DNA of 47,790 nucleotides from a virus. The stretch is from IMG/VR virus record IMGVR_UViG_3300006793_000056, positions 1-47,790 of that record, one strand, 5' to 3'. A model generated the notes under the pieces. The model was not told the origin of the DNA. It did not search any database and saw nothing but the letters and a program-made list of their open reading frames with translations. This document shows, in pieces, positions 578 through 18,964 of this stretch. Made by a program: the position numbers and the translations under genes. Positions within the stretch are counted from its first letter, which is position 1, and each line of letters starts with the position of its first letter.

Positions 578-584
578 CTAAATA
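578..584 (+). promoter_or_regulatory. Late promoter box CTAAATA
   Basis: CTAAATA matches the T4/cyanophage late-promoter element. It lies 5-6 nt before the first paired base of the riboswitch candidate at 590-636, so the predicted transcript would begin almost exactly with the aptamer. Confidence 0.6.
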
Positions 585-589
585 CACAT

Positions 590-636
590 ACGTTCAGACA
601 ATAGTCCGGAAGTAGCATAATGCGAAGGAACGCACC
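590..636 (+). promoter_or_regulatory. Glutamine riboswitch (glnA / Downstream-peptide class) candidate
   Basis: The order of elements matches the glutamine aptamer class: CGTTC (591-595), a short helix, CGGAAGTAG (607-615), a second short helix, then GAAGGAACGCACC (624-636). CGTTC pairs perfectly with GAACG (628-632) to give P1. GAC/GTC (597-599 with 603-605) and GCA/TGC (615-617 with 621-623) can form the two small inner helices. Downstream-peptide RNAs of this class are known upstream of very short ORFs in cyanobacteria and in marine and phage sequence. Here the element sits 24 nt before a 63-codon gene with a strong ribosome-binding site. I identified it from remembered consensus, not a covariance search. 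Confidence 0.8.
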
Positions 637-660
637 TAACTTTAACAAAAGGAGGGTGAA

Positions 661-852
661 ATGAGCAGATTCGATCATCTACACAAACAGTACAGAGAGG
701 CTCGTGTGAAAGCACGTAAGAATGCCATACTTGCACGTAGTCGACTAAACGTTGACACTAATGCAGGTGGTACTAGTGGATACACTGTCAAGCACGGAGC
801 CAACACAGGTCTTGTGCTTAACCATATAACTGTATCCAAACGAACTATATAA
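661..852 (+). CDS. Small basic protein downstream of the glutamine riboswitch
   Basis: A 63-residue ORF with ATG preceded by AAAGGAGGGTGAA, the strongest Shine-Dalgarno sequence in this part of the window. The N-terminal half is rich in Arg and Lys with Ala (residues about 10-28), likely helical; the rest is Gly/Thr-rich. There is no membrane segment and no domain I recognise. Its position directly after a glutamine-aptamer-like leader fits the known association of Downstream-peptide RNAs with short ORFs. That suggests expression tied to the nitrogen state of the infected cell. The molecular function is unknown; a role in host nitrogen physiology is inference from the riboswitch only. Confidence 0.75.
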   Translation: MSRFDHLHKQYREARVKARKNAILARSRLNVDTNAGGTSGYTVKHGANTGLVLNHITVSKRTI

Positions 853-900
853 CGACACTCAGGGGCTTGTTCAAACGATGAGTCCCTGTGCGTACACTCG

Positions 901-907
901 TTAAATA
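901..907 (+). promoter_or_regulatory. Late promoter box TTAAATA, 5 nt before ATG
   Basis: TTAAATA ends exactly 5 nt before the ATG at 913 and no Shine-Dalgarno sequence is present, so the predicted transcription start falls on the start codon. It is one of nine such arrangements in the window. Confidence 0.5.
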
Positions 908-17933: not shown

Positions 17934-18964
17934 TCTGTTGGCTCAGGCTTGCCACACAGGTCAACAACTTTTGGCCATATGTGTGTCCATGCTCTGCCTT
18001 GTGCCATTTCTGCTCGGTCCCATTGACAATATGAAAGATCATTAAACCATTGTTGAATTTCTTCACTACTTGCAAGTGCAGGAGTTTCAACTGCTTCTAA
18101 TTGTTTGCTAGATACATGATATGCAAAGTTTCCTTCATCTACTGCAATAGTAGGAATACCATATGCAATAGCATCAATAGCACTACCACTACTATAAGTA
18201 ATACAAGTTTTTGCTTCTTTTAAATCTTCTTGTAATGTTCTTGCAATTCCGTCACTCCATACTATGTTAGGATAATTTTTAAATACTATTTTTCCTATGT
18301 CACCAAAAAAGTTTTCATGTCCTTTTTCACTCATTGCAGGGTGAAATCTAATTCTTATTTCACGTTTTGTAATACTTCTAAGTTCTTCTATTGTGTCTAA
18401 TAACCATTCGCCATGATCGGATCCACGTAGACTAGCATCGCCGGGTAACTGTGTAAGTATTAAAATGTTACCGTCTTTGTTATTAATCCAACCTTTCCAT
18501 CTAACATATAAGTCACCAAATTTACTAAGTCTATCACCGTTTGAATTTTCGTTATTAAATTCTCCAGCACCACTTAGAAAGCCATTAAGTCCAATTCTAT
18601 ACATATCATGGTTACTTTGTTTTACAATACTTCTAGCAAGTAACGGAGTTTCAAGTACAATATAATTTTTACATTTTTCAATTACACTATTTCTTACACG
18701 ATGATGTAAATTTTCTCTTTCTTTTGCACTACCAAATATGATACCGACGTCTGCTGTTTCGTCTGCAACTTCGCCGTAATCTAAACTAATCTCTACACCA
18801 ATTTTACGGATTTCTTTAATATACTTTTGCATATTGAATTCTGTTAGTTCTTCTTTTACTTTTACACTTTGCGAAAAGTGTGTAACAAGGCCGCGATAGT
18901 ATGCACGTAATACATCTTTTTCGCCGTTGTTTTGTCCTGTTAACATGTAGACTTTAATTTTCAT
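17930..18964 (-). CDS. GT-B-type glycosyltransferase (KpsC/KpsS-like), paralogue 3
   Basis: 344 residues, the longest of the five paralogues. The shared motifs are IRIRFHPAMSEKGH (near 200-213), KTCITYSSGSAIDAIAYGIP followed by TIAVDEGNFAYHVSS (near 250-285), and WFNDLSYCQWDRAEM then GRAWTHIWP at the C-terminus. The start ATG follows GGAGAG and overlaps the upstream gene by 11 nt. Reaction inferred from family; donor and acceptor unknown. Confidence 0.75.
   Translation of the reverse strand: MKIKVYMLTGQNNGEKDVLRAYYRGLVTHFSQSVKVKEELTEFNMQKYIKEIRKIGVEISLDYGEVADETADVGIIFGSAKERENLHHRVRNSVIEKCKNYIVLETPLLARSIVKQSNHDMYRIGLNGFLSGAGEFNNENSNGDRLSKFGDLYVRWKGWINNKDGNILILTQLPGDASLRGSDHGEWLLDTIEELRSITKREIRIRFHPAMSEKGHENFFGDIGKIVFKNYPNIVWSDGIARTLQEDLKEAKTCITYSSGSAIDAIAYGIPTIAVDEGNFAYHVSSKQLEAVETPALASSEEIQQWFNDLSYCQWDRAEMAQGRAWTHIWPKVVDLCGKPEPTE

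Follow-up and report, generated by a model that had tools for sequence, protein, structure and literature searches.

The closest described system is the type-1 glutamine riboswitch (RF01739) of cyanobacteria, where glutamine acting on the gifB riboswitch raises IF17 synthesis; a 2018 review called glutamine riboswitches restricted to cyanobacteria (PMC6316151). In the glutamine-I fold a long-range pair closes off P1, and glutamine-II has an equivalent one (PMC6698751). Glutamine riboswitches have also been reported in the phages Melnitz, Mosig, AG-345-P14 and S-CREM1 (PMC9004378, PMC9964418), that of Melnitz being assigned to tmRNA in the report on this phage. The occurrence of such a riboswitch in a phage, noted in the preliminary description of the present locus, had thus already been reported for Mosig, Melnitz and cyanophages (PMC9004378, PMC9964418). 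A survey of pelagimyophages found no glutamine riboswitch (PMC7029224), and the accessible parts of two surveys of SAR11 motifs describe other structures (PMC2704228, PMC6429828).

The window analysed here, a stretch of 47,790 nucleotides, is a 47.8-kb IMG/VR record (IMGVR_UViG_3300006793_000056) whose source phage was placed in the T4 superfamily. Its closest sheath and terminase proteins were those of large PA5oct-like, Atu_ph07-like and Rak2-like phages (~40–55% identity); near DNA relatives were sought among named phages and none was found. The features of the locus are collected in Table 1. They probably form a late, translational ON switch by which glutamine controls a phage copy of a SAR11-order protein, an explanation that joins the computed aptamer, late box and spacing, Shine–Dalgarno (SD) arm covariation, protein family and host homologues to a presumed SAR11-like host.

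Table 1. Features of the locus and of related loci. Coordinates refer to the window unless a contig (L number) is given.
Feature	Position	Strand	Remarks
T4/cyanophage-type late box CTAAATA	578–584	+	From sequence; predicted transcript start ~590 by T4 spacing
Type-1 glutamine riboswitch aptamer	589–636	+	RF01739, 46.9 bits, gathering score 35, E 3e-7 (whole window)
Aptamer helices	P1 591–595/628–632; P2 597–599/604–606; P3 615–617/621–623	+	Pair coordinates
Expression platform	633–658	+	Anti-SD arm CACCU 633–637 with GGGUG 654–658; inner CUUU 640–643 with AAAG 648–651
SD sequence GGAGGG	651–656	+	Mostly within the hairpin
63-residue basic microprotein, family phrog_32989	661–852	+	Match of the window protein by itself weak, E 0.0014
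Hairpin after the ORF, without T-run	860–888	+	Fold −18.3 kcal/mol
Next late-type box TTAAATA	901–907	+	Precedes Asp_Arg_Hydrox gene 913–1593
Tandem-pseudoknot leader	L352 1443–1500; ~30 further SAR11-order loci within L351–L383; L422, L423, L603–L605		
Freshwater-2 RNA (RF02980)	L125 6648–6717; L126 3941–4010; L131 6498–6570		

Aptamer, late promoter and expression platform

The window contained a single RF01739 match, aligned over the full length of the model (positions 1–53), with the conserved CGGAAGTAG and GAAGGAACGCA beside P1, P2 and P3. Judged by sequence and pairing the element is a type-1 glutamine riboswitch aptamer, with glutamine as its predicted ligand. The preliminary description had named the glutamine aptamer and proposed two covariance models; the glnA model confirmed the assignment well above its cut-off, and the Downstream-peptide model (RF01704) gave no match in the window up to an E-value of 10. 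P1 was formed by five perfect pairs, as described, and in relatives showed compensatory changes (CGTTT/AAACG and CGTTG/CAACG). Blastn matches of the aptamer to S-RIM2 were discarded as chance; they lie inside a gene and have no Rfam match. Elsewhere, a tandem pair of glutamine aptamers before one small ORF was seen on the viral contigs L008, L041, L078 and L110.

T4-type late promoters consist of a TATAAATA or CTAAATA box ~6 nt before the transcript start and are used late in infection with phage factors. The CTAAATA box of the preliminary description was found in place, and T4 spacing from it puts the start so that the aptamer would begin at +1 or +2, in keeping with the +1 that had been suggested. 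TAAATA started at −19 to −11 (peak −12) in 90 of 144 distinct viral aptamers with 60 nt of upstream sequence among the matches listed (~1.06 expected), and the extended boxes were in the majority TATAAATA (n = 43) or CTAAATA (n = 34). A viral scan by the aptamer alone, independent of the protein, covered at least 120 viral contigs and gave a late box for 53 of 106 aptamers among the matches listed, compared with only six of 167 aptamers in cellular genomes. Within the window, 19 of 48 NTAAATA sites lay 8–80 nt upstream of ORF starts (2.2 at random), including those before the sheath and tube genes. Box and spacing fit a T4-type late promoter, and from them we infer the transcript start and late timing.

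The preliminary description had concluded that nitrogen sensing would act on phage late expression. The late box, aptamer and ORF on which this rested were all recovered, and the position of the aptamer at the predicted +1 would suit control of late expression at large; its reach appears narrower, being limited to translation of one microprotein. The next gene has its own TTAAATA box and a hairpin stands between, and the other late-type boxes of the window lack an aptamer, so that broad control is very unlikely. A canonical terminator was sought after the microprotein ORF and none was found; the intervening hairpin, kept with a G-U to G-C change in the close relatives L121 and L122, is a possible stabiliser or transcript end. 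This hairpin and the separate box suggest that the transcript is apparently monocistronic, in which case glutamine would switch translation of the 63-residue protein only. Further downstream, an AlgH/DUF179 (YqgE-like) gene was identified at 1763–2323 (PF02622, E 5e-32), without a PHROG match.

The very strong ribosome-binding site noted earlier corresponds to the GGAGGG of Table 1. Folded alone, the hairpin that covers most of it had an energy of −8.7 kcal/mol. The two arms covaried across a set of 102 distinct leaders, with a score of 11.27 where re-dealt partners gave 9.91 ± 0.13 (z = 10.3, a value inflated by relatedness of the leaders, though the helix types are diverse); the arm pairs seen were CACCC:GGGTG, CACTC:GAGTG, CACTT:AAGTG, CATCT:AGATG and CAATCT:AGATTG. 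The SD is paired with the 3′ flank of the aptamer in a covarying helix, as in a translational, SD-sequestering platform. In the minimum-energy fold from ViennaRNA, a model that does not include ligand or tertiary contacts, P1 was broken and the SD hairpin kept, which would speak against the switch proposed below. From its position, C633, the first anti-SD base, is expected to supply the long-range pair that ends P1, and ligand binding would therefore compete with the SD hairpin.

A similar SD-sequestering layout (GCCTC..GAGGC) was found before cyanobacterial IF7A and DUF4278 genes. Because the SD is buried, this layout is alike and gifB is reported to be ON, translational ON switching is the most likely mode of action of the phage leader, its direction being taken by analogy from gifB. 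The phage would make a short mRNA late in infection, with the aptamer at its very start. Without glutamine, CACCU on the 3′ side of P1 would pair with GGGUG and hide the SD; with glutamine, C633 would be drawn into the P1-ending pair, the SD hairpin would open and the 63-residue protein would be made in the late phase.

Because the tertiary base C633 is the only overlap between P1 and the SD hairpin, the opposite logic has also to be considered: glutamine would stabilize P1, which would stack on the SD hairpin, and the microprotein would be made when glutamine is scarce. The two helices are adjacent (632/633), so that stacking is possible, and an OFF switch would be sensible before the glutamine synthetase and transporter-like genes that follow the aptamer in SAR11-like, SAR86 and SAR116 genomes. 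Those cellular leaders, however, carry other 3′ platforms, and that of the phage is of the cyanobacterial IF7/DUF4278 type reported as ON; OFF switching is accordingly considered unlikely.

The microprotein and its homologues

The ORF was, as described, small and basic. Compared with a 73%-identical copy (L123), mismatches by codon position were 8/7/17 and 14 of 31 altered codons were synonymous, which places it under protein-level selection. The phrog_32989 profile was matched by 20 of 22 aligned family members (best E 3e-34), and IMG/VR held 183 relatives. Relatives were also collected from IMG/VR with the protein as the only query; in all 14 that had complete upstream DNA, RF01739, itself preceded by a TAAATA box, stood a short way upstream of the SD. 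Together with the recurrent box position in 90 of the 144 viral aptamers, this puts the element beyond chance. The IMG/VR loci recovered through the protein and having 100 nt or more of upstream sequence numbered 88. A strict aptamer was present in 51 of them, all with a late box; by eye, the remainder had a variant aptamer (eight), a decayed one (two) or none (27). That the element arose by chance or has decayed, and regulates nothing, might be suspected from the few relatives with decayed aptamers (for example L167 and L168); the 46.9-bit model match, the conserved promoter, the platform covariation and the compensatory changes in P1 make it scarcely credible.

Homologues were also found in the pelagiphages HTVC019P and HTVC011P (T7-like), Kolga (a siphovirus) and HTVC008M (a myovirus), and these four copies were without an aptamer. 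The HTVC008M copy is unannotated and frameshifted; it lies between a DNA end protector and a baseplate gene (HTVC008M 18220–18410; L139 2400–2590) and may be a pseudogene, a sequencing error or a programmed frameshift. Since riboswitch-less relatives occur in other phages and in most hosts, the protein does not depend on the switch for its role. Three further observations concern single contigs or groups. On L136 (1–347) the conserved tail of the microprotein ends a longer open reading frame without an aptamer; in one phage group a freshwater-2 RNA (RF02980) lies ~350–450 nt downstream of the microprotein gene; and a riboswitch-led microprotein family ending in NPFYP is common to the viral contigs L054 and L088 and the SAR86 genomes L301 and L338.

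Outside viruses, a whole-genome profile search gave a homologue, in some cases with a modest E-value, in 217 of 297 genomes of the order to which L272, a Pelagibacteraceae record, belongs and which we take to be the SAR11 order. A narrower profile (A2) had found viruses and missed these homologues in genome contigs. In a class-wide sample two of 289 genomes matched, both of them also in the order sample. The chromosomal homologues adjoin rlmN or other housekeeping genes. RF01739 is rare before these genes: two of the 297 genomes carry the aptamer, and in a short-protein tree these group among phages that bear the aptamer (98/93 with L048 and L102), which would fit transfer between phage and host. 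The phage protein would be a copy of the SAR11-order small protein, and because bacteria of this order carry it widely, the phage probably uses it to modulate some host process when glutamine is abundant in the late phase.

AlphaFold2 predicted an N-terminal helix (residues 5–27, pLDDT ~84–91) and a conserved, low-confidence tail. Profile matches in the PDB comprised designed repeat proteins only, over ~14 residues, and were taken as spurious. Riboswitch-led viral ORFs had a pI above 9.5 in 91% of cases, compared with 40% of control ORFs. If the microprotein were a virion or lysis-module component, glutamine would only tune its dose. This would suit the 27 aptamer-less loci, including those of T7-like phages, where it stands in late clusters next to genes for an M15 peptidase and a membrane coiled-coil protein, as well as the nearby PAAR and gp25 genes on T4-like contigs and the frameshifted HTVC008M copy among structural genes. 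It agrees poorly with homologues on most SAR11-order chromosomes beside housekeeping genes and with a single helix and flexible tail unlike known virion or lysis proteins, and is judged improbable to about the same degree as OFF switching.

True homology to the glutamine synthetase inactivating factors IF7/IF17 was suggested by the shared riboswitch and platform, by the similar size and basic helix and by cyanobacterial IF7A genes that follow the same aptamer class. Alignment of IF7 with 11 viral families by hhalign gave probabilities below 1%, there was no NCBIfam match at E-values up to 1 with the IF7A model in the library, and the ORF had no DUF4278 match. Homology to IF7, IF17 or DUF4278 was rejected on these results and is highly improbable for IF7/IF17; functional analogy remains an option. 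The riboswitch-controlled IF proteins of cyanobacteria offer such an analogy, on which we tentatively favour inhibition or modulation of glutamine synthetase or another nitrogen-metabolism protein as the activity of the microprotein, at rather less than even confidence.

A tandem-pseudoknot leader in SAR11-order bacteria

Upstream of 30 of the 40 chromosomal microprotein copies that were read (mostly the best-scoring ones) a leader without an Rfam match was found. It consists of two consecutive H-type pseudoknots with the pattern NCCAT-loop-ATGGN-A-rich-GTGR, then CGAT-CTAC-ATCG-TTAAAA-GTAG; in inspected examples it starts soon after sigma-70-like sequences and ends 7–20 nt before the SD. In 15 leaders of the short type the four helices paired in 99.6% of cells, with double changes at eight pairs, and the covariation was 0.406 compared with 0.197 after shuffling and at most 0.07 after sliding. 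Module 1 was confirmed on 22 leaders; pair counts for module 2 were taken from the 15 short-type leaders only, because MAFFT misplaces hairpin 2 of the long subtype.

A covariance model of the two hairpins gave 40 strong matches in the 297 genomes, one per genome, so that the leader occurs in at least 40 SAR11-order genomes. Of these matches 38 lay directly before a phrog_32989-type protein and two before a second microprotein (MFYKDF..SRPRAK..QKGI), which is related to phage proteins behind the glutamine aptamer (50% over 42 residues, E 2e-14). In genomes of the class sample the leader preceded a third protein of ~40 residues (n = 3). The proteins that follow it are always small and basic and belong to three unrelated families. 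Five weak matches (L424–L428, E 7e-4) look to be a single conserved sequence without an SD-led ORF behind it and were dropped. Two pattern scans for leaders with CAC and CTC loops, combined with the covariance model, gave no such leader among the viral matches listed.

In bacteria the pseudoknots lead two unrelated families that in phages follow the glutamine aptamer, and a shared signal is suspected for this reason. The leader, which some alphaproteobacteria outside the SAR11 order also carry, is thus a candidate for a new RNA that senses glutamine or nitrogen. It may represent a third class of natural glutamine riboswitch, or respond to the same nitrogen signal, a possibility that we consider less likely than not; the main alternative is a protein-binding or autoregulatory role. 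If the leader does share the signal, phages would have swapped sensor and promoter and kept signal and output.

Comparison with known systems

The type-2 glutamine riboswitch (RF01704) likewise precedes short basic ORFs, in marine picocyanobacteria, and has a different fold. Contrary to the view of a restricted distribution, the type-1 aptamer is widespread outside cyanobacteria: in SAR11-like, SAR116 and SAR86 genomes it stands, often in tandem, before genes for glutamine synthetase and transporter-like proteins (L229–L348). The family phrog_32989 is the one described from T7-like, sipho- and myo-pelagiphages, whose examined isolate copies lack a riboswitch; its chromosomal kin in SAR11 and its two RNA leaders appear to be newly described here.

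Compared with the riboswitches reported in Kyanoviridae-like marine phages, the RNA class is the same, and Mosig shares with the window the layout of late box, aptamer and basic microprotein. In Melnitz (MZ577097, L226 1485–1660) the match to the tmRNA model ends at 1477, and the aptamer (1485–1533) lies past it, immediately before an unannotated 32-residue basic ORF, MTLYQQWCYLKAQKEYRRRQKILMYFRIRLKG, with its own SD-sequestering arm; this suggests that the riboswitch may belong to an overlooked small gene. Late-box spacing, platform covariation and homology to SAR11 proteins are absent from the published reports. A literature search covering the main texts of mostly open-access papers found neither coupling to a late promoter nor the pseudoknot leader, and the late-promoter design, the phage platform, the SAR11 identity of the gene and the host leader appear to be new.

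With the cyanobacterial gifB leader the phage element shares a passing Rfam score, an SD-sequestering platform and small basic downstream proteins. It differs in its T4-type late promoter, with the aptamer at the predicted +1, and in a downstream protein unrelated to IF7, IF17 and DUF4278. The riboswitch class itself is known and its regulatory setting is new: a metabolite riboswitch would here be a recurring module of marine T4-like phage late promoters, and late mRNAs would begin with its aptamer. The small protein under its predicted control is also carried by most SAR11-order bacteria, which are among the most abundant cells of the ocean.
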